Assembly: GCF_019931145.1 (NCBI RefSeq)
Contig: NZ_JAIOUV010000006.1
Span: 62,001 to 126,000 of the forward strand
Length of the DNA stretch: 64,000 nt
DNA from: Marinicella meishanensis
GTDB taxonomy: Bacteria; Pseudomonadota; Gammaproteobacteria; Xanthomonadales; Marinicellaceae
Reading direction: 5' to 3'
The notes under the pieces were generated by a model that did not search any database, was not told the origin of the DNA, and worked only from the letters and a program-made list of their open reading frames with translations. Positions 13,483 to 40,240 of this stretch are shown here, piece by piece. Made by a program: the position numbers and the translations under genes. Numbering within the stretch: position 1 is the stretch's first letter; every line of letters begins with the position of its first letter.

Positions 13483-14919
13483 TTATTCGAAGCGGCCGCG
13501 GAAAATGCGATCGCCTTTCCAGCCATAGACGGTGGGTGACTGGGTGCCACAACCGGTGGCCGCCGAACAACTGGACACGCTGTACCACCAAATGTCCCAG
13601 ATCTGACCGGGGGCAAAATGGGTGTAGCTGTTGCCAGTCACGTTGATGTTGTAAGGCAAACCGGTGGTGGGGATGATGGTCACGTTGTATGAGGTGGCAC
13701 CTGCCACGGCACTCCAATTCACCACAATGCGGTCATCGAAGGTGCCTTGGGTGGCGGTGACGGTGCTGGGTGGTTGCAATGCGGTGTTGGCGGCAAAACC
13801 AGTATCCAGTGCGCTGTGATTGCCACAACCCCATTGGTTACAAGCCCGCACCGAGTATTCGTAAGACAGACCAGGAATGGCTGCGGTGTCATCGGAGGTG
13901 GTGCCTTGGATGTTGGTGTTCCAAGGCGTCCAGCTGCTTTGGCCTGGATCGCGACGATACAAGGCATAAGATGAGGCATCCGAAACCGCCGACCAGGTAA
14001 CCCGCACGCGATCAGTGAAGGTGCCGTCAGTGGCACTGACGTTGGTCGGGGTGGCTGGTGGGTTACCTGATTCCACATAGGTTTCGTCTATGCTGAAAGC
14101 CCGGGTGGCACCTGGCATGCTGGTGGTGTTGAAACCGCTGGCTGTGAAATAACTGCTCACGCTGGTCAAACTGTCCAAATCCAGTATCCGAATGCTGCTG
14201 TCGGTGGCGGCATAGTACAGGTAATGTTGACCGGCAGGCCATCTGACGATGTCAAAGTAACGCTCTTGACCTGGGTTGCCACCAAATTGGACACTGAACG
14301 GGATTTGCACGCCGGTGTAGCCCATGTTGGATTGGCTGGGGTTGAATTGGCGGAATGAACCGTCGGCAGCGGCGTACCACAAATAGCCATAGTCATCCAC
14401 GGCCAAGTGACGGCGGTTGCCGGGATTGGGTTCGCTGGTGCCCCACACGGTGAAGGGGATGGTGTACATGAAGCTGTTGCTCACCAAGTTGTAGACTTTG
14501 ACATCACCTTGTGAGGTGGCGATGTACAAGCGGCGGTTGTTTTCGTCCACCGCCAAGGTTCTGATGGCACCATAAAAACCGTCGTTGATGTCATTGATGA
14601 TGGGGCCGGCACTGCCCGATGCCCAGTCGATCGAATGCACGTGGTTGTCTGATGCGGCATACCACATCAAGCCAGCCACGCGGTCATAAGCGATGTTGCG
14701 TGATGTGGCTGAAAGCGGTGGGGTGCCAAAGAAAGCAAATGGTCCCAGTTGTGGACCAGTGTAAGGGCCAACGGTCATGTTACGCCCCATCAAGCTGCCA
14801 TCTTCCAAGGAATAAAAGATCACACCCAAGGCTTGGGCTTGGGTTAAAGCGGTCAATAAAAACAGCGTTAAGCCCAAAGTGAATCGTTTAAAAATGTTGT
14901 TTACTTGTTGGTTTTTCAT
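13483..14919 (-). CDS. Secreted beta-propeller/FN3 protein ending in an IFxxxFE motif
   Basis: 478 residues. A signal peptide (hydrophobic LGLTLFLLTALTQAQA, cleaved near residue 31) is followed by a propeller-like region to about residue 290 and then two FN3 domains (PPATPTNVSATDGTF and LQPPSTVTATQGTF mark their starts). The protein ends exactly with GDRIFRGRFE, matching the terminal motif of the beta-helix protein at 22-24 kb. AGGAGATACC precedes the ATG. Cysteine pairs (CNQWGCG, CSAATGCG) in the FN3 domains suggest an oxidising, extracytoplasmic location. Function unknown; a surface or matrix binding role is inferred. Single gene with its own terminator. Confidence 0.88.
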   Translation of the reverse strand: MKNQQVNNIFKRFTLGLTLFLLTALTQAQALGVIFYSLEDGSLMGRNMTVGPYTGPQLGPFAFFGTPPLSATSRNIAYDRVAGLMWYAASDNHVHSIDWASGSAGPIINDINDGFYGAIRTLAVDENNRRLYIATSQGDVKVYNLVSNSFMYTIPFTVWGTSEPNPGNRRHLAVDDYGYLWYAAADGSFRQFNPSQSNMGYTGVQIPFSVQFGGNPGQERYFDIVRWPAGQHYLYYAATDSSIRILDLDSLTSVSSYFTASGFNTTSMPGATRAFSIDETYVESGNPPATPTNVSATDGTFTDRVRVTWSAVSDASSYALYRRDPGQSSWTPWNTNIQGTTSDDTAAIPGLSYEYSVRACNQWGCGNHSALDTGFAANTALQPPSTVTATQGTFDDRIVVNWSAVAGATSYNVTIIPTTGLPYNINVTGNSYTHFAPGQIWDIWWYSVSSCSAATGCGTQSPTVYGWKGDRIFRGRFE

Positions 14920-15262
14920 GGTATCTCCTGTTTGGTTTCGGCCCGTTTTTTGTGGGGGATGAAACTGGTTGTGCGTTCATAGATATATGCGACGTGAAGA
15001 AATAAGGTGCGCCAAAATTAACCGTGACACAGTTCTCAGAAAAATAAGAAAATCGCTGTTTTTCGGGTGCTTTGCTCATTTTTTTCAAGAAAAATGGCGT
15101 GGTTGTGTGCTGCTTGGACGGGTTTTGCATCAACAAACAGGCCATGCCGGCTGGTCAGATTTAAACCATTTCGGTGAAACGATGGGTTTTTGCGATGAAT
15201 TGAAGGAACTAATGTGATCAAACTGTTTATACTGGGGATGATGAATCAAATGCCATCACTTT
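14920..15262. other. Intergenic region between divergent genes
   Basis: 343 bases separate the divergent FN3 and LytS-type genes, so both promoters should lie here. I see no repeat of the families found elsewhere, no convincing ORF and no promoter I can place with confidence. Confidence 0.6.
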
Positions 15263-16330
15263 ATGCTCAAAGAGAAACTTCTGAATAACAAAAACTATCA
15301 ATTTTTTGCCCTCAACACAGCTGGCTGGGTGGGTTATTGTCTGACCTCTTATGTGGGTTTGTATTACTGGGACAAGCCAGCCAAGTATTACTACATGTTG
15401 CTGCTGGGTTCAGTGATGGGTTTTGTGATCACCATATTCTTGCGCTTGATTTACCGCCGAATATGGCATTTTTCCATTGTAAACATTGTATTGATGGTGT
15501 TATTCATCAGCTACATCTCTTCCTTGATTTGGGTGGTGCCCTACAACATTGCCTTTTATGAGTGGTTCAAAGGCGGCTGGAAGCCGGAGAGCTGGACCAA
15601 CTACTTTATGGGCGGCCCCAATATTTTTTATATCTTGTTGTGCTGGAGTTGTTTGTATTTTGGCATCAAGTTTTATCAAGGCATGCAACAAGCCAGCCAG
15701 AAAGCACTCAAAGCCAACGCCTTGGCCCACCAAGCCCAATTGAAAATGCTGCGCTACCAATTGAACCCGCATTTTTTGTTCAACACTTTGAACGCCATTT
15801 CTACCTTGATACTGGACAACAGCACCAAAAGGGCGAATGAAATGGTGATTCGCTTGTCCAACTTCCTGCGCCATTCCTTGGACAACGATCCCATGCAAAA
15901 AGTGACATTGGAACAAGAGGTGATGACTTTGGAGTTGTACTTGGGCATTGAGAAGGTGCGCTTTGAAGACCACCTGAAGTTGGATTTCCAAATCGAAGAA
16001 GCGGCGAAAATGGCTTTGATTCCCAGTTTGATTTTGCAACCTTTGGTTGAAAATTCAATCAAATACGCCATCACCCAGTCCGAATCCGGTGGCACCATCA
16101 GCTTTCAAGCCAAGGTGTTTGGCAATGAACTGCTGATGGAGCTGAAGGATGATGGGCCTGGGGTCGAGTTGATCAATGGCGATTTGCCCTGTGGTCGTGG
16201 GGTGGGTGTCCGCAACACCCGTGAACGGTTGGTGCAGCTGTATGCCGAGGGCCATGGCTTCACCATCAGCAACGCCGAACCCCATGGTTTACAAATCAAC
16301 ATCAGGTTGCCTTATGAAAGAGAACAATGA
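15263..16330 (+). CDS. LytS/YehU-type membrane sensor histidine kinase
   Basis: 355 residues. Four hydrophobic segments lie between residues 12 and 135 with no large periplasmic domain. A short coiled linker leads to the His_kinase (PF06580-type) motif LRYQLNPHFLFNTLNAIS with the phosphoacceptor histidine, then the ATPase motifs PLVENSIKYAI (N box), DDGPGV (G1) and GRGVGVRNTRERL (G2). Kinases of this group pair with LytTR response regulators; the next gene encodes one and overlaps this gene by 17 bases. No clear ribosome binding site precedes the ATG. The RND pump genes follow downstream and may be a target, which is inference. Confidence 0.93.
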   Translation: MLKEKLLNNKNYQFFALNTAGWVGYCLTSYVGLYYWDKPAKYYYMLLLGSVMGFVITIFLRLIYRRIWHFSIVNIVLMVLFISYISSLIWVVPYNIAFYEWFKGGWKPESWTNYFMGGPNIFYILLCWSCLYFGIKFYQGMQQASQKALKANALAHQAQLKMLRYQLNPHFLFNTLNAISTLILDNSTKRANEMVIRLSNFLRHSLDNDPMQKVTLEQEVMTLELYLGIEKVRFEDHLKLDFQIEEAAKMALIPSLILQPLVENSIKYAITQSESGGTISFQAKVFGNELLMELKDDGPGVELINGDLPCGRGVGVRNTRERLVQLYAEGHGFTISNAEPHGLQINIRLPYEREQ

Positions 16331-17159
16331 CACACAGCCCCATGAGGGCAAAACCATTCGCACCATGATCGTCGATGATGAGCTGTTGGCCCGTCGCGGC
16401 CTGTCCCTGCGTTTGGATCATTATGCCGACATTGAGTTGGTCGCCGAATGTGCCAATGGCCGCGAAGCCTTGGCAAAAATTGCCGAATTGTCGCCGGACT
16501 TGGTCTTTCTGGACATTCAAATGCCAGGCATCAATGGCTTTGATGTGGTGGAACAAATGCAATCTGATGACATGCCTTTGGTGGTGTTTGTCACCGCGTT
16601 TGATAAGTATGCGGTGGAAGCGTTTGAAGTCCATGCGGTTGATTATGTGCTCAAGCCGATCGAAGATTGCCGGTTGGAAACTGCCATCAATCGGGTGCGC
16701 CAACAAATGCAACAGTCTGATGTCAACAACCAAAAGCAACGCTTGATGGATTTGATCACCAACATCACCGGCAAAGATCCGGCCCAAATCGATCAGTTGC
16801 TACAAAATGGTCATGATTTGAGTGGCCAGTACCCGGAAAAATTGTCGATCAAAGACTCTGGCCGCACCACCTTGATCCCAGTCAAGGACATTACCTGGAT
16901 CGAAGCGGCCGGGGATTACATGTGCATCCACAGCAACAACCCCAAACAAGTCAATGTGTTGCGCAGCACCATGAAAGAATTGGAAAGCAAGCTCAATCCA
17001 GCTTTGTTTCAACGCGTGCACCGCTCCACCATGGTTAACATTGACTGCATCCAGAAAATCTGTTCACACATCAACGGCGAGTACTTTTTGATCTTGGATG
17101 ACGAGTCCAAAATCAAAATGAGCCGATCCTACCGCAGCAAAATCAAACACATCATTTGA
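16314..17159 (+). CDS. LytTR-family response regulator
   Basis: 281 residues from the ATG at 16314, chosen because the receiver domain starts just after it; a longer frame upstream would be out-of-frame kinase sequence. The receiver has the acidic pair in IVDDE (D21, D22), phosphoacceptor D67 in LVFLDIQMPG, and a conserved Lys in VLKPIED. A C-terminal LytTR DNA-binding domain (about residues 180-281) contains IPVKDITWIEAAGDYMCIH and FQRVHRSTMVNI. It overlaps the kinase gene, so the two are made together. LytTR regulators bind paired direct repeats in target promoters. The target is unknown, but the next genes downstream on the same strand encode an RND efflux pump. Confidence 0.95.
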   Translation: MKENNDTQPHEGKTIRTMIVDDELLARRGLSLRLDHYADIELVAECANGREALAKIAELSPDLVFLDIQMPGINGFDVVEQMQSDDMPLVVFVTAFDKYAVEAFEVHAVDYVLKPIEDCRLETAINRVRQQMQQSDVNNQKQRLMDLITNITGKDPAQIDQLLQNGHDLSGQYPEKLSIKDSGRTTLIPVKDITWIEAAGDYMCIHSNNPKQVNVLRSTMKELESKLNPALFQRVHRSTMVNIDCIQKICSHINGEYFLILDDESKIKMSRSYRSKIKHII

Positions 17160-17178
17160 CCATTTAGATGATTTAATA

Positions 17179-17400
17179 TGGTCATCCCGAGCGGAGTCGG
17201 TCGCTTCCGCTTCCATGCTCAGGCGACACACCTATTTCCATGTAGGCGCCGGTCTCTGATCCAGTCTCGACTCAAGCACTGACATCCATGTAGGCGCCGG
17301 TCTCTGATCCTGTCTCGACTCAAGCACCGACATCCATGTAGGCGCCGGTCTCTGATCCAGTCTCGACTCAAGCACTGACATCCATGTAGGCGAGTGGGGA
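17179..17400. repeat. Composite repeat element A (three 48-bp units, decayed ends)
   Basis: Begins with GTCATCCCGAGCGGAGTCGG and contains three adjacent, almost identical 48-bp units at 17247-17294, 17295-17342 and 17343-17390 (each starts CGCCGGTCTCTGATCC and ends CATCCATGTAGG). They are the reverse complement of the units in elements D, E and F. The right-hand terminal repeat is not recognisable, so this copy seems decayed. It lies in the 438-bp spacer between the response regulator and the RND permease; the rest of that spacer shows nothing else I can name. Confidence 0.85.
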
Positions 17401-17597
17401 CTGAGGGGGGTGTTTGAGGGCCAAAGGACCTTCACTGTGCGGCATGATTGTTGGCTACATACCCTGCCAGAAGTCATGTATGCCGTCGTTTGCGAGGTAT
17501 TTCATCGCAAATTCAATGCGCTTGATCGCAAGCGGCTGTCATCAGTCCCACAAAAAATGGATGATGGAATCATCTTTTTATATGGTGGGCAAGCAGC

Positions 17598-20500
17598 ATG
17601 AAATTGACGGCATTTGCACTGAAGAACCCCGCGGCCATCGGCATTGGTTTGATTTTCATCGTGATCGTCGGTGTGATCAGTTTGTTTAAACTGCCGGTGC
17701 AACTGTTTCCGGATATTGAACGCCCCAGGATTTCAATCCAAACCAATTGGCGTTCTGCTTCCCCCCAAGAAGTCGAATCTGAACTGGTTGAGCCTCAGGA
17801 ACAAATCCTGCGAGGCATTCCTGGCTTGGCCTCAATGAGTGCATTCGCCAATCGCGGTAATTCCTGGATCAATCTGGAATTCGGCGTCGACACCAACATG
17901 GAACAAACGCTGATCGAAGTGATCAGCCGCATGACCCGGTTACCACCACTGCCCGCAGATGCCACCCCTCCTCGAATCATGCTCGGTGGCTTTGGCGGTG
18001 GTGGTCCGGCCTTAACTTGGTTCTTTTTGCAAACCTTGCCAGGCAACGAACAACCGGTTTATGACTACTTCGAATACGTCAATTCAACCATCCGGCCACG
18101 ACTGGAAAGCATTCCTGGGGTGTCCAGTGTACAAACTTTTGATAACAACAATGCCGAAGAAATTCACATTCGGTTTGATCCAGTCAAGGCCATTGAATAT
18201 GGCATCCAAATTCCGCAACTGGTCAATGCCGTTTCACTGAGCAATGATGTCACCGGCGGATTTGTCGATGTGGGAAAGCGACAATATACCTTACGCTTCA
18301 GTGGTAAGTACCCCATCGAACAACTCAGCGAGCTGACTTTGGCAGCCGTTGATGGCAGCCGCATCCGTTTAGGTGACATCGCCGTGGTCGAGCGTTATCG
18401 CAACGACCGCTTCAATCGCGCCATCCAGAATGGCAACCCGGCATTCAGCATCCGCATCGACAAAGCCAATGGCGCCAATGTGTTGGCCACCCTGGAACGG
18501 GTCAAAGCCGAAGTCGACGCCATCAATGAAGACATCCTGGCCGACGAACAGTTGGTCATGGTGCAGTCATTTGATGCTTCGGTGTTCATTTATCGGGCCA
18601 TCAACCTGGTGACCAACAACTTGTTCGCTGGGGTGGTGTTGTCCTTGTCGGTGTTGTGGTTGTTCATCCGCCGTGGGCGCCCGACTTTGATCATCGCGGT
18701 GGCCATACCGGTGTCGCTGTTGGTGACCTTTGTGGTGTTGAACGCCCTGGGGCGCTCCTTGAACGTCATTTCTTTGGCGGGTTTGGCCTTTGCCGTGGGC
18801 ATGGTGTTGGATGCGGCCATTGTGGTGTTGGAAAACATCCTGCGGCTGCGTGAAGGTGGGGATTCCAAGCACGACAGCTCCTTGTTGGGCACTTCGCAAG
18901 TTTGGGGTGCACTGTTGGCCTCTACCACCACCACGGTGGCGATCTTCTTACCCGTGTTTTTTCTGCAAGGTGTCGAAGGCCAGCTGTTCGGTGACTTGGC
19001 ATTGACCATTGCCATCGCCGTAGCGGTCTCATTGCTGGTGGCGGTGGTGCTGTTGCCCTTGCTGGCCAAAACCTGGATCAAAGAAAATCAATTGAATGAC
19101 CGCCTGGCCCACCGTTGGCAACAAATCACCGCCGGGGTGATGCGCTTGACCTCGAGCCACAAAAAACGCCTGGTGTTGGCCTTCAGCTTGATGGTGATTC
19201 CAGTGGGCATCACCTGGTATGCGGTGCCCACATTGGATTACTTGCCACCGGTGAAACGTGATGCGGTGGATGCCAATTTGCGCTTTCCACCGGGGGCCAA
19301 CATGGAAACCATCAAACGCGAAGTGGTTGACCCCATTGTGGCCAGACTGAAACCATACATGGACCATGAACAGCAGCCATACTTGAAAAACTACTACATT
19401 TTCTATGGCCCCGGTGGCGGTGGCATGGGCATTCGCGCTTTGGATCAGTCAAGGGTCAATGAGCTGTTGGATGTGGTACTCAATGAAGTGCTGGTTGACC
19501 TGCCTGACACCAATGCTTTTGCCTCTCAGGGCAACTTGTTCGGTGGCTTCAACGGCGGACGTTCGGTGTCCATGCACCTGCAGTCCAAAGATGATCGGGC
19601 GCTGTTGGAAGTGGCCCGGTCGGGCATTGAGTGGATTGAGGCGGCCATTCCAGGGGCCCAAGTGCAACCCAGTCCGGGACTGGATTTGGCCGAACCTGAA
19701 ATTCGCCTGACACCCAATGACCGAGAAATTTTTGAACAAGGCTGGACCCGCCGTGACTTGAGTGCGGTGGTGCGCACCTTGGGTGATGGTTTGTATGTGG
19801 GTGAACACTTTGATGGCAGCAAACGCATCAACATGATCCTGCGGGCCGATGGCTGGCAAGCGCCGGAAGAATTGGCTGATGTGCCGATTGTCACCGCCGC
19901 TGGCAACATCAAGCAAGTGGGGCAGTTGGTCGACATCAGCCGCACCGTGGGTCCGAGCAACTTGCGCCGCATCAATGGCGAACGCACGGTTTCACTGGAC
20001 ATCGTGCCACCGGATGGGTGGTCTTTGGAACAAACCATCGCGGAATTGGAATCGTCGGTGGAACCCCAAATGCGGGGCATTATGCCCGATGATGGCGTCA
20101 TCTTGTATGGCAACAACGTCAGTCAGTTACAGTCGACCATTCAAGTGATGAGTCAAAACTTTGCCTTTGCCTTGCTGATTCTGTTTTTACTGATGGCCGG
20201 TTTGTTCCGCTCAGCCAAAGACAGTTTGTTGGTGCTGGTGACGGTGCCATTGGCCACGGTGGGTGGGGTGTTGGCCTTGCAATTATTGAACCGCTTCGTG
20301 TTTCAACCGCTGGACTTATTGACCATGATTGGTTTTGTGATTCTGCTGGGCTTGGTGGTGAACAACGCCATTTTGTTGGTGCACCACACGCGTATGGCAG
20401 AACGGGCCGGTAAATTGCGTCAGCAAGCCGTTGAACAAGCCTTGCGGCTGCGGCTGCGGCCCATTTTTATGAGCACACTGACCAGCTTCTTTGGCATGTT

Positions 20501-20708
20501 GCCGTTGTTGTTGGTGCCTGGTGAGGGCAGTGTGATTTATCGAGGATTGGCGGCCGTGATTGTGGGAGGTCTTGGCGTCAGTACTTTATTCACCATCGTG
20601 TTGTTGCCTTGTTTACTGCAACTCCAACGCAGCGACTTCGGTGTGTTGACCCAGAGAGAAAAGCGCTTCACTTCAACCTCAGCTGAACCCCATGGAGAAG
20701 CCTTATGA
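17598..20708 (+). CDS. RND-family efflux transporter permease
   Basis: 1036 residues, the normal length for AcrB-like inner-membrane permeases, which export small molecules using the proton gradient as part of a tripartite complex. Twelve membrane helices in the usual 1+5+1+5 pattern with two large periplasmic loops are evident. FAVGMVLDAAIVVLENILR in the fourth helix carries the proton-relay region, slightly altered from the usual VDDAIVVVEN (one Asp replaced by Leu-Asp-Ala). KLPVQLFPDIERPRI near the N-terminus is typical. The stop overlaps the start of the adaptor gene by four bases (ATGA). No outer-membrane channel gene lies nearby, so a channel encoded elsewhere is expected. Substrate unknown. 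Confidence 0.95.
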   Translation: MKLTAFALKNPAAIGIGLIFIVIVGVISLFKLPVQLFPDIERPRISIQTNWRSASPQEVESELVEPQEQILRGIPGLASMSAFANRGNSWINLEFGVDTNMEQTLIEVISRMTRLPPLPADATPPRIMLGGFGGGGPALTWFFLQTLPGNEQPVYDYFEYVNSTIRPRLESIPGVSSVQTFDNNNAEEIHIRFDPVKAIEYGIQIPQLVNAVSLSNDVTGGFVDVGKRQYTLRFSGKYPIEQLSELTLAAVDGSRIRLGDIAVVERYRNDRFNRAIQNGNPAFSIRIDKANGANVLATLERVKAEVDAINEDILADEQLVMVQSFDASVFIYRAINLVTNNLFAGVVLSLSVLWLFIRRGRPTLIIAVAIPVSLLVTFVVLNALGRSLNVISLAGLAFAVGMVLDAAIVVLENILRLREGGDSKHDSSLLGTSQVWGALLASTTTTVAIFLPVFFLQGVEGQLFGDLALTIAIAVAVSLLVAVVLLPLLAKTWIKENQLNDRLAHRWQQITAGVMRLTSSHKKRLVLAFSLMVIPVGITWYAVPTLDYLPPVKRDAVDANLRFPPGANMETIKREVVDPIVARLKPYMDHEQQPYLKNYYIFYGPGGGGMGIRALDQSRVNELLDVVLNEVLVDLPDTNAFASQGNLFGGFNGGRSVSMHLQSKDDRALLEVARSGIEWIEAAIPGAQVQPSPGLDLAEPEIRLTPNDREIFEQGWTRRDLSAVVRTLGDGLYVGEHFDGSKRINMILRADGWQAPEELADVPIVTAAGNIKQVGQLVDISRTVGPSNLRRINGERTVSLDIVPPDGWSLEQTIAELESSVEPQMRGIMPDDGVILYGNNVSQLQSTIQVMSQNFAFALLILFLLMAGLFRSAKDSLLVLVTVPLATVGGVLALQLLNRFVFQPLDLLTMIGFVILLGLVVNNAILLVHHTRMAERAGKLRQQAVEQALRLRLRPIFMSTLTSFFGMLPLLLVPGEGSVIYRGLAAVIVGGLGVSTLFTIVLLPCLLQLQRSDFGVLTQREKRFTSTSAEPHGEAL

Positions 20709-21805: not shown

Positions 21806-21829
21806 GGGTTAGCATGAACCAGCTGCGTT

Positions 21830-21854
21830 CAACAGGGTCCATGGGACCCTGTTG
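21830..21854 (+). terminator. Hairpin after the RND operon
   Basis: CAACAGGGTCC and GGACCCTGTTG form a perfect 11-bp stem around a three-base loop just after the adaptor stop. No T-run follows, so termination may be partial. Confidence 0.6.
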
Positions 21855-22338: not shown

Positions 22339-22351
22339 GCAGCCAGCCCAT

Positions 22352-24037
22352 TCACTCGAAATCATCGGCGTAAATCAAATCAGCCAACAAGGGCCTGGGT
22401 CCGTAATGTGGGGTACCTTGACCCACTTCCAATGCGCCCAAGTCTGGTGCACTGCCCTGATGGATTTCATTGATGTTGGCCAAGTGTTGTCCGGCATTGA
22501 CTGCAGGACACGCGGGATCCAAAGTCAAGTGTTGTAAAACCATGGGCGCCGGGGGTGGGTTGGGGATGTTGAATTGATTGAAACAACTGAGGTGGTCTAT
22601 GTCCACGGCGTTCATTTCTTGACCGGTCATGGCTTGAAACGCCGGGATGTCGACCAATCTGATGTCGCCCCATTTGAAGGCATAGGGGTAGTTACCCCAA
22701 TCAAAACCATCATAATCCAAATCGGTTTTCCAATTGTTGCTGCCATCGCCACCGTTTTCCCACACATAACGGTCTTCGATGGAAATCCACAGGTTGTTGC
22801 GGGATTTGAAATTGCGCAACAAATCCGATCCTGAAGAAACCGGTCCATTCCAGGCCACCAACGTGTTGTGGGCCAGCAGCACCCGATCACTGCGGGAGCG
22901 CAACTTGAGGGCGTCTTCATTGGGCGCCGCCACTTGGTTGTACAGCACATACCAAGGCGCCCCATCCATCGGCTGAAAGCTGATGCCATTGTTGTGTACA
23001 TTGGAAATGCGGTTGCGCCAGATGCGCACATTGCTGTGACCGTAATCTCCCTCTATACCGTCGTCGGTGGTGTCGAGGATGTCATTGCCAAAGATGTCGA
23101 CATTGCGGTGTGGGTAGGAAATGCCATCGGCCACATCTGAGATCCGATTGTAAGCCACGGTATGGCCTGAGGTGTGTTGCAATTCAATGCCTTCACCGGC
23201 AAAGTCTGAACCGGCACTGATGTCCCGGTCACCGATGATGGTGTTGTCGGCAATGTACCAATCATCACCGCCGTCATTCAGAAAGATGCAATAGTGACAA
23301 TTTTCAAAATGGTTGCGGGTCAGCACGATGTTTTGTGGGGCCGGTGGTGACGTGCGTAAACCGTATTGGCCATTTTGTGCGTTGTAGATGAAATTCAATC
23401 CATGCAGCCAGATGTAATTGGCTTCAATTCGCACTTGGTTGAAAGTCACCGGTCCGTCACCGGCATCACGCCACAGGATGTGGTTGTCGATGGCGCCCGA
23501 GGCGGTGAAGTTGACCTGACCGCCGGTGCCATAGTCACCGGCATGCAACAAAAACGTGTCACCGGGCTGGGCCACGACCTGGGCTGCGGCCACGCCTTGA
23601 AATGGGTTGCCTGCGGTGCCGCTGCCACCGCCATTGCCGGGTATCACGTGATAAGTTTGGCCCAAGGTCGGAAAGGTCGGTATTTTTTGGGTGCGCACCA
23701 AGCGGGTTTGGGTGCTGTTGCCACCGTCCACATCAGATAAGGTCAAGCGCAGCTCATATTCGGTGTCAGGGACCAAAAACAAGACGCTGCCTGCCAGCAT
23801 GTCGTAGCCTTCAAAATCGACCCGAAACAAGGGCTGGGCATCGCGCCATAAGGCGTTGCCACTGACCCGGTATTCAACCAGGCAGGTGGCGTTGTGGTTG
23901 CCGTCGCCGCTGATGTTCCATTCCACCCCAATGGAGTGAATGGTGGCATACGTGGTCAAGGTGCCCGGCGTGGTTTGCGCCTGCAACCCCCACGAACTGA
24001 GCAACCAAGCAACCATTATTGAAATTTTGCTGTTCAT
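22352..24037 (-). CDS. Secreted right-handed parallel beta-helix protein ending in IYxxxFE
   Basis: 561 residues. Signal peptide MNSKISIMVAWLLSSWGLQA, an FN3-like domain to about residue 125, then beta-helix rungs (NIVLTRNHFENCHYCIFL, WYIADNTIIGD, VAYNRISDVADGISYPHRNVDIFGNDI, VRIWRNRISNVHNNGISF) typical of the pectate-lyase or NosD-like fold. It ends in ADLIYADDFE, the same kind of C-terminal motif as the FN3 protein at 13.5-14.9 kb. Such folds often bind or cleave polysaccharides, but no lyase catalytic residues can be assigned by eye. Single gene, divergent from the gene at 24.2 kb. Confidence 0.88.
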   Translation of the reverse strand: MNSKISIMVAWLLSSWGLQAQTTPGTLTTYATIHSIGVEWNISGDGNHNATCLVEYRVSGNALWRDAQPLFRVDFEGYDMLAGSVLFLVPDTEYELRLTLSDVDGGNSTQTRLVRTQKIPTFPTLGQTYHVIPGNGGGSGTAGNPFQGVAAAQVVAQPGDTFLLHAGDYGTGGQVNFTASGAIDNHILWRDAGDGPVTFNQVRIEANYIWLHGLNFIYNAQNGQYGLRTSPPAPQNIVLTRNHFENCHYCIFLNDGGDDWYIADNTIIGDRDISAGSDFAGEGIELQHTSGHTVAYNRISDVADGISYPHRNVDIFGNDILDTTDDGIEGDYGHSNVRIWRNRISNVHNNGISFQPMDGAPWYVLYNQVAAPNEDALKLRSRSDRVLLAHNTLVAWNGPVSSGSDLLRNFKSRNNLWISIEDRYVWENGGDGSNNWKTDLDYDGFDWGNYPYAFKWGDIRLVDIPAFQAMTGQEMNAVDIDHLSCFNQFNIPNPPPAPMVLQHLTLDPACPAVNAGQHLANINEIHQGSAPDLGALEVGQGTPHYGPRPLLADLIYADDFE

Positions 24038-25335: not shown

Positions 25336-25339
25336 TCCT

Positions 25340-32060: not shown

Positions 32061-32191
32061 TGGGTGATGGTTTCTGCTGCTGGGTCACAGTAACTTTAAC
32101 CAAAGTGGCAGAAGGTGTCCACACCTCGCCATCAATATCGAAAAATTTCGAGTTTCCTGTCTGAGGTCATTCAAATCCAGTGGATGAAAAG

Positions 32192-33640
32192 CTAAAAATG
32201 CGGCTGTGCCAAGATCGTTTGCAGCATGCTGATCACGGCATCCTGGTTGGGACTGACCAAGATCACCCGCACCGCACCCGCCGGAGTTTTGACCACCACC
32301 GCTTCCTCATGCGGTGGTGTGGTGGGCAAGCCAGGCAAGTTTAACTTGGTCACCTGGTCCCATGACTCGGCGACGATGACCGCGTCCATCCGTGCATAGC
32401 GGTGCAATACAAAATCTGGATCTTGCACATCGCTGCCGTGGTTGATGTGGGCCGAAGAGGGTCGGATCATACCGAACAGCTCATTGATCAAGGCATCCTG
32501 GTCATCGCCCAGGATCACCATGCCGACATGCCGCAAGCGCTCACTGGGGCTGTCCCTGAGGTCCTTCAATGACGTCCCCCAAATGGCATCCAAACGTTGC
32601 AAAAACTCGGTATCCACCGCGCGGTTTTGCTTGAGGTATTCGGTGACCAAGTCCAACGCGGCTTTGCTGGCGGTGTCGATGCCTGCGTTGGCATAAAAAG
32701 ACAGCGGGTAAGCCAGGTATTTGGCGAAATATTCTGGGCTGCTCAAGCGCTGCTCCAAGTAGCCGTTGCCGATGGCCGAAGCCATTGCCTCATTGAACAG
32801 GTAATAACCCACCAATCCGGTGGGCGATTCGGCTTGGCTGAAATGGTTCATGGTTTTCAGGTGATGGTCGAGTGTGGCCCGTTCATGGTAAAAATGGGCA
32901 ATTTCATGCACCACCACCGCCAACCGCTGGGCGGCTTTTTCACCTTGCAACACCTCGATCAGGCTGTGTTGCCCGAAAACCAAACCCGAGGTCGGCGCCT
33001 GGACCTGGGGGTGGGCGATCAGATGCACCGGCAACACCAACTCAGAGGGCAATTGAGCGCGGTAAAAAGTGCGCATGGCGCTGAGCAACTGATCCAGCTG
33101 CACCTGCTCGGACAAGGTTTCGGCCTCGGTAACGAAGCTTTGCAGTCCCGCTTGTTGTTGGTTGAACCAAGACGCAAAGCGCGGCCAAAAGTGTTGCAAG
33201 ATGGCTTGTTCTGCTTGCACATGGCTGGGGGACAACAGCAGCCCGGAAAGGCGTTGATATTCAGTCAATGTGGGCGCTTCGAACGCCATGATCCGCACCT
33301 TCTCCAACACATTCAACACCTGTGCGGCATTGATGGGAAAATTGGGGCTGGTGACCATCGCCACCGCTGGCTGCTCCTCCAACTCGATGGTTTCATCCAA
33401 TTGGCTGCGCAGCACTTGCCACTGTTGCAACATCGCCGCATCGGCCTCATCGGCTTGGATCTCACCCTGCCACAAAGCCTGAAAGTCACTTTGGCTGCAG
33501 CGAAAACGCGCCACCTGCGCCTTGCAATCCAATTGATAAACCAAATTTCCCACGGGTGAGACCCGGTATTCAATGGTGTGAGAGGCCATGACCCAAGAGG
33601 TGTACAGCAACAGTGACAGTCCGAGTGAAAGGTGTTTCAT
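32192..33640 (-). CDS. Secreted gluzincin-like metallopeptidase
   Basis: 482 residues with a signal peptide (MKHLSLGLSLLLYTSWVMA). VVHEIAHFYHERA near residue 247 gives the zinc-binding HExxH, and FNEAMASAIGN about 35 residues later gives the third ligand in the NExxA form, as in gluzincins such as thermolysin relatives. The first 200 residues are helical, and the C-terminal part has no recognisable domain. GGAGCCTCAC precedes the ATG. It probably acts in the periplasm or outside the cell; the substrate is unknown. Overall similarity to a named peptidase family is not visible, so the function rests on the zinc motif. Confidence 0.8.
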   Translation of the reverse strand: MKHLSLGLSLLLYTSWVMASHTIEYRVSPVGNLVYQLDCKAQVARFRCSQSDFQALWQGEIQADEADAAMLQQWQVLRSQLDETIELEEQPAVAMVTSPNFPINAAQVLNVLEKVRIMAFEAPTLTEYQRLSGLLLSPSHVQAEQAILQHFWPRFASWFNQQQAGLQSFVTEAETLSEQVQLDQLLSAMRTFYRAQLPSELVLPVHLIAHPQVQAPTSGLVFGQHSLIEVLQGEKAAQRLAVVVHEIAHFYHERATLDHHLKTMNHFSQAESPTGLVGYYLFNEAMASAIGNGYLEQRLSSPEYFAKYLAYPLSFYANAGIDTASKAALDLVTEYLKQNRAVDTEFLQRLDAIWGTSLKDLRDSPSERLRHVGMVILGDDQDALINELFGMIRPSSAHINHGSDVQDPDFVLHRYARMDAVIVAESWDQVTKLNLPGLPTTPPHEEAVVVKTPAGAVRVILVSPNQDAVISMLQTILAQPHF

Positions 33641-33713
33641 GTGAGGCTCCTTGTTTGGGTTTTATTGAGTAGACGACAGTAACACGAATAGGGTCGCAAA
33701 ATGTTTCAGATCT

Positions 33714-33840
33714 TGCCCAGTTCACTGAGCTGGTCGAAGTGTCTGATTGGAGAAAGGGAAGTTGGGCTTCGACAGGCTCAGCCACCCTATGTAACACATC
33801 GTACCAAGATCAGTGGGCTGATCGAAGTGACTGGCAGGAG
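33714..33840. repeat. Dispersed inverted-repeat element
   Basis: GTTCACTGAGCTGGTCGAAG and, inverted 35 bases later, GGCTTCGACAGGCTCAGCC can pair to form a long hairpin; a third related piece (GTGGGCTGATCGAAGTG) follows at 33815. This resembles the TCGACAGGCTCAG-type extragenic repeat that I recall from many bacterial genomes. It fills part of the 380-bp spacer before the small ORFs; the rest shows nothing definite. Confidence 0.65.
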
Positions 33841-34020
33841 GAGAGGACGCTTGGCACCCATTGGCTTTGCACAACAGTGGTCAAAGTGTTGGTTGTATGA
33901 GAATGGTGTTTTGGAAAAGTGCAATTGCATTGAACGGTGAAATATTTTTTTACCCATTCTCAAGTTTTGCGAATCGCTGATGAGATCATGACCCCATCAA
34001 CGAAATCAGCGGAGAAAACC

Positions 34021-34233
34021 ATGCAACAACTTGTGATCAAACTGAGCCCCGAGGCCACGGCTGACTATCTGAAAATTGCCAACGGGGCGCATCAACCACA
34101 CAGCAACACCCAACTGGCGATCAATTTGGCCATGGTCTCAGGCCTGTGTTTTGCCGACATCGGCGTCAACGGCCAACGCATTCAGGCGGATACAGACCAT
34201 GATGACCTTGAGGTCCAACTGGTCAGCCTCTGA
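34021..34233 (+). CDS. Small hypothetical protein (70 aa)
   Basis: The ATG at 34021 follows GGAGAAAACC, a strong ribosome binding site, so I prefer it over an in-frame start 84 bases upstream. The product MQQLVIKLSPEATADYLK... is 70 residues, soluble, mixed alpha/beta, ending in an acidic stretch (ADTDHDDLEVQLVSL). No family recognised. It is first in a row of three small ORFs on the same strand. Confidence 0.7.
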   Translation: MQQLVIKLSPEATADYLKIANGAHQPHSNTQLAINLAMVSGLCFADIGVNGQRIQADTDHDDLEVQLVSL

Positions 34234-34311
34234 ACCGACTCCACACCCTGGTGTATGGATGCGCCATGGGGGACCGACAGGTCCGTTTGAGTGCTCGGAG
34301 GTCCCACAGGT

Positions 34312-34392
34312 ATGCCCAAGGGCAACCCCACGTTCGAGCCCGATCTTGAAGCAGCCCGGGATGGACTGTTTCAGGGTCAACCCATCAATTGA
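34312..34392 (+). CDS. Possible 26-residue micro-ORF
   Basis: GGAGGT lies nine bases before an ATG that opens 26 codons (MPKGNPTFEPDLEAARDGLF, then QGQPIN). The strong Shine-Dalgarno sequence and position between two small genes, 78 bases after one and 15 before the other, suggest it may be translated. It is too short to judge by composition. It has no signal or membrane segment. Confidence 0.4.
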   Translation: MPKGNPTFEPDLEAARDGLFQGQPIN

Positions 34393-34407
34393 AGCCTGGA
34401 GCACACC

Positions 34408-34707
34408 ATGAAACCCAACACGAAACCCGATTTGAACACCATACCCAACGACCCCGCCGCCACCATTTTGTTCCAACAAGCCGGGGTGTTTGACGACATC
34501 CCCGCCTGTTACCAAACCTGGCAATACGATGGCATCCGCGGCGAAAGCATCGTGTTTTTGAAAAAAGACCTCAAAGGCCGCAAAGACACGGACCTGATTC
34601 AAAAAGTCAAAGCCTCCCAACTGGTTCGTCAGGACAGCCAAATCACCTTCAGCCGCAACCCGCCCGAATACCTGTTCATCAACTTCAACATCCAGTTGGA
34701 TGGATGA
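34408..34707 (+). CDS. Small hypothetical protein (99 aa)
   Basis: Ninety-nine residues starting MKPNTKPDLNTIPNDPAATI, with GGAG eleven bases before the ATG. Proline- and Asn-rich at the start, then a basic helical segment (FLKKDLKGRKDTDLIQKVKA) and a strand-rich end (ITFSRNPPEYLFINFNIQL). I do not recognise it. It follows the 70-residue and 26-residue ORFs and may share their transcript. Confidence 0.65.
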   Translation: MKPNTKPDLNTIPNDPAATILFQQAGVFDDIPACYQTWQYDGIRGESIVFLKKDLKGRKDTDLIQKVKASQLVRQDSQITFSRNPPEYLFINFNIQLDG

Positions 34708-34829
34708 CTCCATCGCACCAGACCTCCAAAGCCCCACAAGGATGTGGCGGTGCGAGGCTTGGACACCAGCAAGAGGTCTTACCCCGTGAGCGACAACTTC
34801 AATCGCTGTATCAAAATTAAAAAAATCAC

Positions 34830-35010
34830 TGTCATCCCGACCGAGAGAAACGAGTGGGCCGCTACCGCATCCTGCTCACGCGGCACACCTACATCCATGT
34901 AGGCTCCGGTCTCTGATCCCGTCTCGACTCAAGCACCTACATCCATGTAGGCGAGGGATCTCGCAAAGTTCACGAGATACTTCCACTCACTGCGTTCGGT
35001 CGGTATGACA
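34830..35010. repeat. Composite repeat element B (one full 48-bp unit, inverted)
   Basis: 181 bp. The ends are TGTCATCCCGACCGAGAG and GTTCGGTCGGTATGACA, near-perfect inverted repeats. The core has one full unit read as CTCCGGTCTCTGATCC and flanking CACACCTACATCCATGTAGG hairpin halves; the whole element is in the opposite orientation to D, E and F. It lies in the 329-bp spacer between the small ORFs and the PDZ-hydrolase gene. Confidence 0.85.
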
Positions 35011-35036
35011 ATTACATGTTAAGCAAACCATTGCGT

Positions 35037-36389
35037 TTAAAATTCCGCCAACCAATCCAAAATCACGCCACTGACGGCGGGGTCGGATTCGCCCGGTTTG
35101 CCGTTGAAGGAGTTTTTGGGTGATTCGTGGATGGTTTGCCAATGGTCGAGACCGGGGTGTTTGTACAGCACGTGGTCTTGGTGTCCGGCGGCTTGCAGGA
35201 TCTCGATGATCAGGTCGTTGTCGGCTTCACTCATGATCCAATCGTGGGTGCCCCAGCGGATGCGGGCGGGGACTTGCAGTTGGGCCCAGGCACCGGCCAC
35301 ATCGAATTGTTGCAGCTGTTGATAAAAAGCCATGGGGCGGCCGTACATGTGGGCAGGGGCGTGGTAATTGTCTGCAGCAATTGCAGGATAGGCGTCGATC
35401 ACCTGCTGATAACTTTGACGACCGATCAACATGCCGTGGTACAGCGGAATAAAGACCTGATTCATTTTCTGGGTGATTTCGCTTTGGCTGTGGCCCTTGA
35501 AGGCGAGGATGCGGCGCTCGATTTCCAACATGTGCTCATACCAGGTTTTCACATAGGTACCATCGGACACCACCGCAGCGAATCCAAAGCGGTTGGCAAA
35601 ATGCGGGGCCAGGGCCGAGCCCATGGAATTGCCATAAACCACGATCCGCTCTGGATCGACGTAGGGCAGGGACTTGAGGTATGCAGCGGCGGTGTGGTAT
35701 CCATTCAATTCGGTGTTGAAGTCGGTTTCTGAACAGTTGCCTTCGGAATCACCCAGCCCGGGCTTTTCTACCCTGAGCAGCACTTTGTTGCTGCGGGTCA
35801 CCAGTTCCCGAATCAAGCGGGTCCAAGAATTCAAGCGGTCGGCATTGATCTCGATGCTGGAACAGCTCAAACCTTGCAACAGCAGTATGGCTGGCTGGCG
35901 TCCGATCACCCCTTTGGGTTTGGTGATGATCACCCGTTGGCGAATGCCGTAATCGCTGGTGATGTGGTCATAGATGGTGTCGATGCCTTCATGCACCTCT
36001 TTCGGCTGGGCTTTGAAGCGCACCGTCACCTGTTCGCTTTGTTGGCCGCGCTTGTAGGTCAATGCATACCGCTGTTTCGCCACCAGGGCATCGGTCACAT
36101 CGGACCAGGCTTCTGGGCGCAGGATTGGTTGGCCATTGACCGCCACGATGTGGTCGCCGACTTGTAAACCGGCTTGGGCCAAAGGTGAATCTGCTGCCAG
36201 ACTGCGGACGATGACCCCGGCGGTTTGGCTCTCAGGGAATTGGAAGCGGGCTTCCCATTGGGCCCGGCGGGGCAGGTCTTCGGCCCAGGCCAGGCCGCTG
36301 ATCAGCAGCATCAGCAGACAGGTCAATAATGGCAACGAAGTGCGCTCAAAAGGGCTGGAAATGGATAAACAATGGGGTCTGAATTTCAT
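35037..36389 (-). CDS. Exported PDZ-alpha/beta hydrolase fusion
   Basis: 450 residues with an N-terminal hydrophobic signal (LPLLTCLLMLLISGLAWA). A PDZ domain (about residues 40-115, VIVRSLAADSPLAQAGLQVGDHIVAVNG) is joined to an alpha/beta hydrolase domain: the nucleophile elbow is GNSMG near residue 255, and likely acid and His lie in GTHDWIMSEADND and HPGLDHWQ. GLSCSSIEIN upstream fits the oxyanion region. Such proteins are probably periplasmic esterases or peptidases, and the PDZ domain may recruit a substrate. No substrate can be named. Divergent from the LytTR gene. Confidence 0.87.
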   Translation of the reverse strand: MKFRPHCLSISSPFERTSLPLLTCLLMLLISGLAWAEDLPRRAQWEARFQFPESQTAGVIVRSLAADSPLAQAGLQVGDHIVAVNGQPILRPEAWSDVTDALVAKQRYALTYKRGQQSEQVTVRFKAQPKEVHEGIDTIYDHITSDYGIRQRVIITKPKGVIGRQPAILLLQGLSCSSIEINADRLNSWTRLIRELVTRSNKVLLRVEKPGLGDSEGNCSETDFNTELNGYHTAAAYLKSLPYVDPERIVVYGNSMGSALAPHFANRFGFAAVVSDGTYVKTWYEHMLEIERRILAFKGHSQSEITQKMNQVFIPLYHGMLIGRQSYQQVIDAYPAIAADNYHAPAHMYGRPMAFYQQLQQFDVAGAWAQLQVPARIRWGTHDWIMSEADNDLIIEILQAAGHQDHVLYKHPGLDHWQTIHESPKNSFNGKPGESDPAVSGVILDWLAEF

Positions 36390-36493
36390 GGCGTCATCTC
36401 GGGTTGAAAGTGGGCTATACTAAAGCGCCTGTGAGGCGAAAAACCCGAATTATGACGAAATCCACCACCCACGATGTCAACCACGGCTGATGC

Positions 36494-37291
36494 ATGATGA
36501 CCCAATCACTGTTTAAATCACTGTTCAGGCTGGATTTAAAACGAACCTACTCGAATTACTACCTGTTCAATTCCCGGATCGTGACCCACGTGGCTTTTTG
36601 GCTGGCCTATTACATCAGCTTTTCCCTGATTTGGTCAGGTCGCTATGGTTTGTATGGCTCGTTTTATTTGGAGTTCATTCTGCTGCCGATGCGCATGGCC
36701 GCGACATACCTGGTGATTTATTGGGCCATGCCGCGCTTTTTGTTGACGGCGAAATTGCTCGCATTTTTATTGAGTTTGGCCGGTATCTTGTTGATTTGTG
36801 GGCTGTTTCAACGCCTGTCGATCTATTTTTTCTATGAGGAGTTCCTGGCCATCAGCCAAACCGCTTTGTTCAACCCCCAAGCCATCTTTCGCTCCATGTT
36901 GTTGATCAACACCACCGTGATGCTGGCCATGACCATCAAATTCTATGGTCTCTACCAGGAATTGAAACAGCAGGGTGTGGCCGAGCCCGTGTCGTTGATC
37001 GAACTCAAGTCCGACCGCCGCATGCACCTGATCCACCCTGATGACATCAGCCACATCCAAGGCTTGGGTAATTACGTCACCATTCATTTGCTCGACGGCA
37101 GCGAGTTGACCAGCTATACCACCCTGAAGAACTTGATGCAGCAGCTGCCAGAACAATTCCTGCGGGTGCATAAATCCCACATCATCAACAAACAACACCT
37201 CAAGTCCTACAACAACGAAGACCTGCAAATAGGCAACAAAACCATCCCCCGTGGCAAGGACATCGAAGATGCGGATTTGAAACTGCAATGA
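36494..37291 (+). CDS. Membrane-anchored LytTR transcription regulator
   Basis: 265 residues. Four membrane helices (about 30-140) are followed by a linker and a LytTR DNA-binding domain (residues 165-265; VSLIELKSDRRMHLIHPDDI, LGNYVTIHLLDGSELTSYTTL, LRVHKSHIINKQHL). There is no receiver domain or kinase, so sensing and DNA binding seem to be combined in one membrane protein, a one-component arrangement known in some LytTR regulators. The start is either of two adjacent ATGs. It may control the G8/CEMIP-like gene that follows on the same strand; this is inference from position only. Confidence 0.9.
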   Translation: MMTQSLFKSLFRLDLKRTYSNYYLFNSRIVTHVAFWLAYYISFSLIWSGRYGLYGSFYLEFILLPMRMAATYLVIYWAMPRFLLTAKLLAFLLSLAGILLICGLFQRLSIYFFYEEFLAISQTALFNPQAIFRSMLLINTTVMLAMTIKFYGLYQELKQQGVAEPVSLIELKSDRRMHLIHPDDISHIQGLGNYVTIHLLDGSELTSYTTLKNLMQQLPEQFLRVHKSHIINKQHLKSYNNEDLQIGNKTIPRGKDIEDADLKLQ

Positions 37292-37342
37292 TCAACTTCA
37301 ACAAAACCAGTTTTCTATACCGCCCTCAACCAACACCCCAGA

Positions 37343-37378
37343 CACCCAACTAAGCATGCCCCTGTGAAAACAGGGGTC
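37343..37378. repeat. CCCCTG-CAGGGG palindrome repeat, copy 1
   Basis: CACCCAACTAAGCATG then CCCCTGTGAAAACAGGGG, a six-base stem with a six-base loop. Related copies occur at 43.01, 45.91 and 49.91 kb with the same CACCC...TAAGCCTG lead-in. Lies in the 231-bp spacer before the G8 gene. Confidence 0.75.
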
Positions 37379-37522
37379 CACGCTGCAAACGGTCTGCACA
37401 TGACCCAGTTCTCAAAATTCAGGGTGATTGACAGAATATGTGAAAAAATTCCCCGGTTTTGACGAATGATTAATAAGATGAAACAAATAAAAGGGTGATC
37501 TAACGCCCTGTAGAGGTGAACA

Positions 37523-40240
37523 ATGAACAGCACAAAGGGGTTAATGGTGTTGCTGGTGGGCTTGATTGCACTGCCGCAACAAGCCCATGCAGAATTGATC
37601 TTTGGTAATGGCTTTGAGCCGTTTCAACTGTGGTCGGATCCGAACACTTGGGGTGGTGCGGTGCCGGGGGCCGATGACGATGTGGTGATTGACGCCGACA
37701 TGAATGTGTTGCTGGACATCGACACCGCCGCCTTGTCGAGCTTGACCATTCATGGCAGCTTGCGGTTTGCGCCTCAAGATTTGTCATTGACCAGTGACTG
37801 GATCATGCTGCATGGTGCCCTGGACATCGGCCACCCGGGCCAACCGCACCAACACCAAGCCATCATCACCTTGACCGGTGATGACCCAGGCAGTAACCCC
37901 ACCACCCGGGGCTTGATGGTGATGGGAGGCCAATTGCGTTTGCATGGGGCGTCACCGGCCAGCACTTGGACCCAAATCAACCAACACATCCAAGCCAACG
38001 ACTCGACCATATCGGTGCTGGACAGCAGCGGCTGGCAAGTCGGTGATCAAATCGCCATCGCCCCGACTGATTTTTACGGCGTCAGTGAAACCGAACTGAT
38101 GGTCATTGATCAAGTCAATGGTCAAAACGTCCAACTGACCTCTCCGGTGGCTGATTTTCGTTGGGGGCTGATGCAATACGCCAGTCCCAGTGGCATGAGT
38201 TTGGATGACAGCACCCTGGTGACGCCGCCGGCCACCGATGGCAACACGCCGCTGGCCCTGGATGAGCGGGCCGAAGTGGGTCATTTAACCCGCAACATCG
38301 TGATCCAGGCGCCGGATGACCCGGCCTGGCAAAACGATGGCCTTGGGGCCCACGTCATGATCATGTCCTTGGATTCCATGTTCCAGGTGGATGGGGTTGA
38401 GTTTCGCCGGGTGGGGCAGGCCGGTCGTCTGGGCCGGTACCCGGTGCACTGGCATGTCTTGAGTTATCTGCCTGATGGCACCGAGATTGGCGATGCAGCG
38501 GGTCATTACCTGCGCAACAGCAGCATCCATGAATCATCCAACCGCTGCGTCACCATTCATGGCACCAATGGCGTTGAGGTGTCCAACAACGTGTGTTTCA
38601 ATGTTTTGGGCCACGCCATCTTTTTTGAGGACGCGGTCGAACGCCGCAACCTGGTCACCAGGAACCTGGTGATGCACGTGCGGTTCCCAGTGCCCGAAAA
38701 CGCCTTAAAACTGCACGACATCAATGTCCAGGCTGGCATCATCACCGGCTCCAGTGGCATCTGGGCCACCAATCCAGACAACACCGTGACCCACAACCAC
38801 GTGGCCGATGCCGAAGGATTTGGCCTGTGGATGGCGTTTCCCGCTGGCCCCTTGGGGATCAACCCCAATGTGCCCATCTTTCCATACCGCATGGAATTCG
38901 GAGTGTTCGATGACAACACCTTGCATTCCAATCAATTCCGTGGGGTGATGTTCGACAACGTGGAAATCGATGACCTCGGTAATGTCGCGGCCTTGCAATA
39001 CGGCTCCACCGCCGATGGCCAGCCAACATTTGACTTCTTGCAACGCTTCACCATCCGTGGCTGGACCCTGTACAAAAACGGCAACGGCAACTTCTGGGAC
39101 CGGGTCATCTGGCCCACCTTTGAAGAGTTTGTCTCGGCCGACAGCGCTGGCAAGTACTTTTCTGGCTCTGGCGCCGAAGGCTTGATCACCCGTTCCTTGT
39201 TGGTGGGCAGCAGTTTGAATGATTTTTCACCGCGGCCCCACCCCTGGATGGGACCACCGACGGCCTTGGCCACTTACCACAGCGCTTTCGACATGCGGGA
39301 AAACATCATTGTTAATTTTCCCTTCGCCGAAGGCCAGACCAGCGGCGCCTTCGCCACCGATGACTACTACATCCGACCGGTCGACAAAGGGCAAGTCCGC
39401 AATGACAACAACCTGCTGGTCAACTCGCACCCGGGTTACCGCAGTGATGCCGCGGTGGATGAAAACATCGCCTTTAATTTCGCCCAAGGCTACACCCATT
39501 ATGTGTTTGCCGGTGCGTTGTGGGACCCGCATGGCATGTGGGGCACCGCCGGCAATTACAGTGTTTATGACCAAACCTTTTTCACCCATGGGGCGACCTG
39601 TGCCACCATCATGCCAGCCAGTCAAAACGCCGCCAGCTGTGATGGTGAGTATTTCGGGGTGGATCAATTCATCATTGATCAAGTGAATTTGCCGTGGGAC
39701 GACCTGATGGAAATCGACATCGACCGCCTGGATGAAGCCAATCCGAATGTGGTGGTGGGGAACTGGCAGGTGGACGCGGCCAACGTCGGTGACCAATTGG
39801 CCCACATGCGCCATTTCGCAGCCCGCGCCAATGGCTTGTTCCGGGTCGACTTCCCCTCCTTGTCGACCTTGCCGGTGGATGTGGCGATGTCCTTGTCCAA
39901 CATGCACGCCGCCAATGATTTCCTGGTGTTGGGCATCACCTTCGATGGCAGCTTAACCGCCCAGGTGTTCGCTTCAACCCATCCCTACAACCACTACATC
40001 ACCGATGCCCATGCCGGCGCCGGCAGTTGGGCCAACAAACACGACTACCTGGCCTTGAATTCACGCCAGGCGGTGATCGATTCAGCCGGCGAAGCTTTCT
40101 GGCAAGACCACGCCAACAACGTGGTTTGGGTTAAAGTCAATTACGCCAACCTGGAACAATGGGAACCACCCGACGGCGAACCCTTTTCCGACAGCACCCT
40201 GTACAACCAATACCACCTGCGCATTTGGGCCGACGACTGA
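37523..40240 (+). CDS. Secreted G8-domain, CEMIP/TMEM2-like parallel beta-helix protein
   Basis: 905 residues, signal peptide MNSTKGLMVLLVGLIALPQQAHA. The mature protein starts ELIFGNGFEPFQLW, an IFxxxFE-type motif placed at the N-terminus. A G8 domain follows (residues 37-150; WGGAVPGADDDVVIDADMNV), then a beta-helix with GQAGRLGRYPVHWHVL and NSSIHESSNRCVTIHGTNG, strongly like the core of animal CEMIP and TMEM2, which act on hyaluronan. The C-terminal 250 residues are unassigned. GAGGTGA precedes the ATG. I infer an extracellular polysaccharide-binding or -cleaving protein; activity is not proven by the motifs. Confidence 0.88.
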   Translation: MNSTKGLMVLLVGLIALPQQAHAELIFGNGFEPFQLWSDPNTWGGAVPGADDDVVIDADMNVLLDIDTAALSSLTIHGSLRFAPQDLSLTSDWIMLHGALDIGHPGQPHQHQAIITLTGDDPGSNPTTRGLMVMGGQLRLHGASPASTWTQINQHIQANDSTISVLDSSGWQVGDQIAIAPTDFYGVSETELMVIDQVNGQNVQLTSPVADFRWGLMQYASPSGMSLDDSTLVTPPATDGNTPLALDERAEVGHLTRNIVIQAPDDPAWQNDGLGAHVMIMSLDSMFQVDGVEFRRVGQAGRLGRYPVHWHVLSYLPDGTEIGDAAGHYLRNSSIHESSNRCVTIHGTNGVEVSNNVCFNVLGHAIFFEDAVERRNLVTRNLVMHVRFPVPENALKLHDINVQAGIITGSSGIWATNPDNTVTHNHVADAEGFGLWMAFPAGPLGINPNVPIFPYRMEFGVFDDNTLHSNQFRGVMFDNVEIDDLGNVAALQYGSTADGQPTFDFLQRFTIRGWTLYKNGNGNFWDRVIWPTFEEFVSADSAGKYFSGSGAEGLITRSLLVGSSLNDFSPRPHPWMGPPTALATYHSAFDMRENIIVNFPFAEGQTSGAFATDDYYIRPVDKGQVRNDNNLLVNSHPGYRSDAAVDENIAFNFAQGYTHYVFAGALWDPHGMWGTAGNYSVYDQTFFTHGATCATIMPASQNAASCDGEYFGVDQFIIDQVNLPWDDLMEIDIDRLDEANPNVVVGNWQVDAANVGDQLAHMRHFAARANGLFRVDFPSLSTLPVDVAMSLSNMHAANDFLVLGITFDGSLTAQVFASTHPYNHYITDAHAGAGSWANKHDYLALNSRQAVIDSAGEAFWQDHANNVVWVKVNYANLEQWEPPDGEPFSDSTLYNQYHLRIWADD

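Follow-up and report, generated by a model that had tools for sequence, protein, structure and literature searches.

PEP-CTERM, GlyGly-CTERM and similar systems are characterised by one short motif that is common to many unrelated exported proteins. For type II substrates, no common linear signal is known (PMC7949064, PMC12369372): a 9-residue flexible loop of PelI acts as a secretion signal that binds both GspC and GspD and governs recruitment (PMC7949064), and VesB alone among the substrates depends on the EpsC PDZ domain (PMC12369372). Here we describe a short peptide, called the tag in what follows, that was noticed in four genes of a 64,000-nucleotide stretch of Marinicella meishanensis DNA (contig NZ_JAIOUV010000006.1, positions 62,001 to 126,000; the whole stretch is referred to as the window). 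The tag showed a strong but imperfect correlation with a second type II secretion operon, gspC-gspD-gspE-gspF (gspCDEF), and we consider it an even call whether the peptide is a linear recruitment label for this system.

Comparison with known sorting and secretion signals

The tag and the GlyGly-CTERM/rhombosortase system of Vibrio and Shewanella have in common a short C-terminal motif, many unrelated Sec-exported proteins and a type II context, and the families that carry the two labels are related (M36 peptidase, nuclease and choice-of-anchor homologues). GlyGly-CTERM, however, combines a Gly-rich motif with a transmembrane helix and a basic tail and depends on rhombosortase, whereas the tag has 7-9 soluble residues and may be N-terminal. 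The rhombosortase model TIGR03902 scored over its cut-off in three tag-negative genomes only and in no tag-positive genome searched, so that rhombosortase is unsupported as the tag enzyme.

PEP-CTERM/exosortase and MYXO-CTERM show the same many-to-one layout, on exported proteins with choice-of-anchor domains; unlike them, the tag has no transmembrane segment or basic cluster and is not confined to the C-terminus. No hydrophobic helix of the kind present in C-terminal signals of the helix type (LPXTG, PEP-CTERM, GlyGly-CTERM and MYXO-CTERM) was found in the 0-12 residues that follow the motif. In the type IX secretion system, the signals are folded domains some 70-100 residues in length. They resemble the tag as C-terminal elements on unrelated secreted proteins, which they direct to a machine, but the tag is 7-9 residues long, stands directly behind other known domains and brings no folded C-terminal domain.

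Loop 3 of PelI/Pel3 (Dickeya/Pectobacterium; PMC7949064) is, like the tag, a short exposed and flexible stretch, of 9 residues, and decides recruitment via GspC and GspD. It belongs to one enzyme only and is part of a composite signal, whereas the tag is common to dozens of unrelated termini. In the case of EpsC and VesB (PMC12369372), the PDZ domain of a GspC picks a subset of substrates through a determinant that can be grafted onto another protein; this determinant lies within an Ig fold and, unlike the tag, is no linear peptide. A literature search for the motif and its relatives returned nothing relevant.

Sequence and placement of the tag

The genome containing the window (G000, 3.99 Mb, where the window is C12:62001-126000) was searched for I[FY]xxxFE directly followed by a stop codon, yielding 41 matches against 0 for a reversed-pattern control. 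When the stop codon was not required, 113 matches were obtained against 11 for the reversed control; these controls exclude a chance origin of the motif. TAA or TGA followed directly after 41 of the 113 motifs, approximately 3.5 being expected (chance about 1 in 32; binomial p ~2e-32). The original prediction had placed the motif at the ends of secreted proteins and proposed its C-terminal enrichment as a check. All four copies were found at the places given, and the motif is commoner at C-termini than chance allows.

Reading of 68 tagged genes of this genome gave the consensus D-[LVI]-I-[FY]-x-[DNTS]-[GDAS]-F-[ED], followed by 0 to 12 residues, with a tail length of 0 in 45 genes. Its short form, D-L-I-F-x-x-x-F-E, is a terminal peptide of nine residues found on dozens of unrelated proteins exported by this marine bacterium. 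Only I, F, F and E were set by the search pattern, which left positions -2 and -1 free; at these unselected positions, D occurred at -2 in 60/68 genes and L, V or I at -1 in 61/68. Selection acts on the peptide and not on the DNA, since nine identical IFADDFE ends are written in nine different DNA sequences. Codons vary at every core position, which together with these differing sequences discards the hypothesis of a DNA-level element.

Two further arrangements were observed. One protein (L066:4728-6083, minus strand) ends in two tandem tags, reading RIFATGFENDLIFATGFEGTAVPPTCPAF. An internal copy, DRIFFDGFEGLFTN, is located at residue 228 of a 928-residue frame in L092 (minus strand), ahead of an apparent PKD-type domain, as though a tagged protein had been extended.

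Two of the genes in the window carry the tag at the end of the protein. The first (13483..14919, minus strand) encodes an exported protein of 478 residues with an N-terminal signal peptide and an fn3 match, ending in GDRIFRGRFE (tag at 13486..13515, minus strand; stop codon at 13483-13485). The second (22352..24037, minus strand) encodes an exported right-handed beta-helix protein of 561 residues, with a signal peptide and a match to Beta_helix PF13229, ending in ADLIYADDFE (22355..22384, minus strand; stop codon at 22352-22354).

The third gene, a choice-of-anchor Q beta-helix protein (12383..13357, plus strand; NF041518 at residues 239-297), had been described as a truncated beta-helix with DLIFKDGFQ near its end. 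The motif is present (13292..13318, plus strand), followed by a 12-residue tail, ATILIRRTLVKN, and the stop codon; the description has to be amended in that the gene is a 5'-truncated remnant and its tag a decayed one. The signal peptide was lost where the gene meets a TspO-like membrane protein gene (11873-12361) that abuts its 5' end, and FQ replaces FE. The junction of the two genes (window 11873-13357) marks a past deletion.

The fourth gene (37523..40240, plus strand) encodes an exported G8/CEMIP-type protein of 905 residues, with G8 (PF10162) at residues 42-152 and CEMIP_beta-hel at 274-474. Its signal peptide of 23 residues, MNSTKGLMVLLVGLIALPQQAHA (37523..37591, plus strand), is directly followed by the tag ELIFGNGFE (37592..37618, plus strand) and a proline, ahead of the G8 domain, and its C-terminus is untagged.

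This N-terminal placement, which the original prediction had called odd, is real but not unique to the G8 protein. N-terminal tags, placed just after the signal peptide, were found in three proteins of three families, the other two belonging to other families of the order: a DUF1800 protein (L072, family f6; MRVSFAFLLAWLMLAEPGGAS, then PIFASGFEPPFN) and a beta-lactamase-like protein (L154, family f2; LAGSAGAQPLFADGFEPGPIRP). In all three, proline comes directly after FE. Pairs of DUF1800 and DUF1501 genes carry one tag each (L057:3741-6924, L064:1688-3545 and onward, L072:12539-15716) and its site differs among them, being the DUF1501 C-terminus, a separate small neighbour protein or the DUF1800 N-terminus. 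The existence of N-terminal and tailed copies means that a free C-terminus is unnecessary for recognition, ruling it out as a requirement. What the reader of the tag requires is an exposed end rather than a carboxylate at the C-terminus, and it works on proteins that Sec or Tat has already exported.

Carriers of the tag and their export

Signal peptides of tagged genes and of their untagged neighbours were judged by a simple script. By this crude measure, 55/62 tagged genes encode exported proteins, against 132/355 untagged neighbours (odds ratio 13, p ~1e-14), and most of the 7 tagged genes that failed the test were truncated, borderline or mis-started. One carrier, a DUF1501 protein in L057, has a Tat signal; the other exported carriers are Sec proteins. 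At least one likely lipoprotein (L081) is among the carriers, as judged from sequence only.

Carriers belong to many Pfam and NCBIfam families: FG-GAP, beta-helix, LRR, S8 subtilase, M14 and M64 peptidases, DUF1501, Endonuclease I, ExeM/NucH-type nuclease and choice-of-anchor B, I, J and Q. The tag lies outside every Pfam and NCBIfam model matched on them, and the many unrelated families, with no model spanning the tag, exclude the possibility that it is a piece of a common fold. Orthologues of the subtilase in several genera show the catalytic domain, then a short variable linker and then the conserved tag. The AlphaFold model of the subtilase has a mean pLDDT of 51, too low to judge if the tag stands out from the protein.

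In choice-of-anchor Q proteins the tag comes at once after the domain (as with the domain at residues 239-297), and it fills the slot where related proteins elsewhere carry a sorting signal. Members of an apparent Ser/Thr kinase family were observed beside tagged genes at 10 loci (L032, L040, L058, L060, L064, L074, L075, L080, L081 and L087). These kinases, identified by eye, recur in several genera, with an ECF-type sigma factor in five of the loci; kinase and sigma factor may form a regulatory pair that acts on secreted choice-of-anchor Q proteins.

The claim that unrelated folds carry the motif is upheld by the number of families, and the signal-peptide counts show that cytoplasmic proteins are not equally tagged. 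A sorting-type role, as originally suggested, is favoured by a motif that lies outside folds, is almost restricted to exported proteins, follows choice-of-anchor domains and is kept beyond variable linkers.

Co-distribution with the gspCDEF operon and alternative functions

The tag is abundant in the genus of the window and in most of its family, with a patchy occurrence elsewhere in the order Xanthomonadales/Lysobacterales. Outside the order it is at background level: 364 further genomes of the class gave 8 single matches (GC-neutral pattern followed by a stop codon). By a relaxed pattern, genomes G110, G004, G016, G034 and G031 have 70-95 tags, exceeding the genome of the window.

A search for GspD in 55 genomes identified two secretin types. 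Tag-rich genomes have an Xps-like operon, running from E to D (L116:9005-19520), and, as a second operon, gspCDEF, which adjoins ftsE-ftsX and is located at L115:12118-17574 (C9:118617-124073 of G000). The GspC of gspCDEF matches the profiles of the T2SSC and PDZ domains, and its predicted model has a membrane helix, an HR part and a PDZ part that match the EpsC PDZ, PulC PDZ and GspC HR structures. Full-length PDZ-GspC was found only in gspCDEF genomes, with a partial relative in the Xcs-type genome G061. Named relatives with the secretin are Marinicella, the nearest, and, further out, Dokdonella, Rudaea, Tahibacter, Rehaibacterium and Wenzhouxiangella.

A profile of the short GspD gave a clean separation: secretins of the short type scored approximately 560 bits or more (lower only for fragments at contig ends), Xcs-type secretins of family f2 438-557 bits and Xps-like secretins less than 200. 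Tags and operon were compared by family in genomes at least 95% complete, with statistics that ignore relatedness. In f2, 52 tags were counted in the single genome with the short GspD and 0-1 in the 34 others; in f12, four genomes with it have 30-95 tags and the 29 others at most 3. When both families were pooled, 5/5 operon genomes were tag-rich against 0/63 without the operon (p 9.6e-8, not corrected for phylogeny). Across all families, at least 10 tags were found in 44/60 genomes with the operon and in 1/79 without. G019 (4.7 Mb, 100% complete), the sole sampled member of the window's family that is tag-free, has no GspD-like secretin. The orthologue of the subtilase client was present in 14/18 gspCDEF-positive genomes and in 0/19 without the operon; the tag-free genomes do not have this orthologue at all.

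Type II secretion in general is insufficient as the partner of the tag, since the Xps-like system also occurs in f2, f8 and f12 genomes that are tag-free. Xcs-type secretins are ruled out as a substitute, the f2 genomes that have them being tag-free. The proposal to look for a co-occurring protease or secretion protein yielded a candidate, the type II secretion operon with a PDZ-GspC.

Were the tag a recruitment label, Sec or Tat would bring the carriers to the periplasm, where they would fold and leave the short, soluble peptide protruding, commonly at the C-terminus and rarely just after the signal peptide. The second type II system would then recruit the label, the likeliest binding sites being the GspC PDZ domain and/or the N-domains of the secretin GspD, and the recruited proteins would pass to the cell surface or the medium. 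As for type II substrates, a Sec or Tat signal peptide is present on nearly all carriers, and the machine is encoded in G000. Physical recognition, the binding domain and secretion as the outcome are parts of this mechanism that we infer.

Several observations weigh against a recruitment label. Wenzhouxiangella-type genomes (f9, genus g12) hold the operon with 0-5 tags, so gspCDEF does not require the tag. Conversely, genuine C-terminal tags occur without a detectable short GspD or GspC in f8 (15 in G063, 8 in G097, 5 in G171 and 6 in G122); these exceptions possibly reflect recent operon loss with leftover tags, and short GspD is present in G156, a draft of the genus of G063. Four tagged drafts less than 95% complete (G048, G059, G177 and G178) also showed no short GspD. 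Perhaps three or four independent losses underlie the strong contrasts, and another gene lost with the operon could be the partner. Classical PDZ ligands have a hydrophobic C-terminal residue, whereas the tag ends in E or D, tolerates tails and is sometimes N-terminal; internal PDZ ligands do exist. Finally, the operon has no pseudopilin genes of its own and must borrow them from elsewhere, possibly from the Xps-like operon.

The main rival to a secretion signal, which we hold to be unlikely but worth weighing, is surface retention. The proteins would leave through a type II system by virtue of their own structural signals, and the tag would then dock by beta-strand addition into a putative outer-membrane or surface receptor, which would be lost after gspCDEF because its clients stop arriving. 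The choice-of-anchor B, I, J and Q carriers, with relatives elsewhere that have anchoring signals, agree with this, and the [DN]G turn that separates IF from FE would be in keeping with a small beta-hairpin. In V. cholerae, GlyGly-CTERM on type II substrates serves surface retention and a separate secretion signal is needed (PMC13393428). No receptor candidate was found, however, and freely acting secreted enzymes (nucleases and peptidases) are tagged too; the lipoprotein-like carrier L081, to go by its sequence, would need no second anchor.

It is improbable that the match with gspCDEF is a phylogenetic coincidence, with the tag serving another envelope process of this order (e.g. quality control of folding or a chaperone in the periplasm) and the gene for that process having been lost from the same lineages. 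The small number of independent losses that carry the signal and the exceptions in both directions would fit such an account, but the match is exact inside two families, and the family member without any GspD, G019, is also tag-free. A dedicated sortase- or protease-like enzyme that cleaves or transfers the tag would explain one short motif on so many unrelated exported proteins (41 against 0 in the control), but we find it very improbable, a cleaving transpeptidase being unlikely because no membrane segment or basic cluster follows the motif, N-terminal copies exist at the mature end, rhombosortase was over the cut-off in no tag-positive genome searched, and the tag ends the protein in 45/68 genes, with little left to cleave.

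For the reading as a recruitment label, the stronger form is that the tag is the first common linear type II signal, transferable, read by the GspC PDZ domain and/or GspD and working at either end of dozens of unrelated clients; we place this slightly short of an even call. Many bacteria rely on type II secretion to export folded enzymes and toxins. If the tag is such a signal, recognition by a type II system would become testable through simple grafting, secretomes would be readable from genomes across the whole order, and a short tag for exporting folded enzymes would be available for use in harmless laboratory bacteria. Should it prove to be an anchor instead, the tag would still be a sorting label not described before, and one that lacks a membrane segment.

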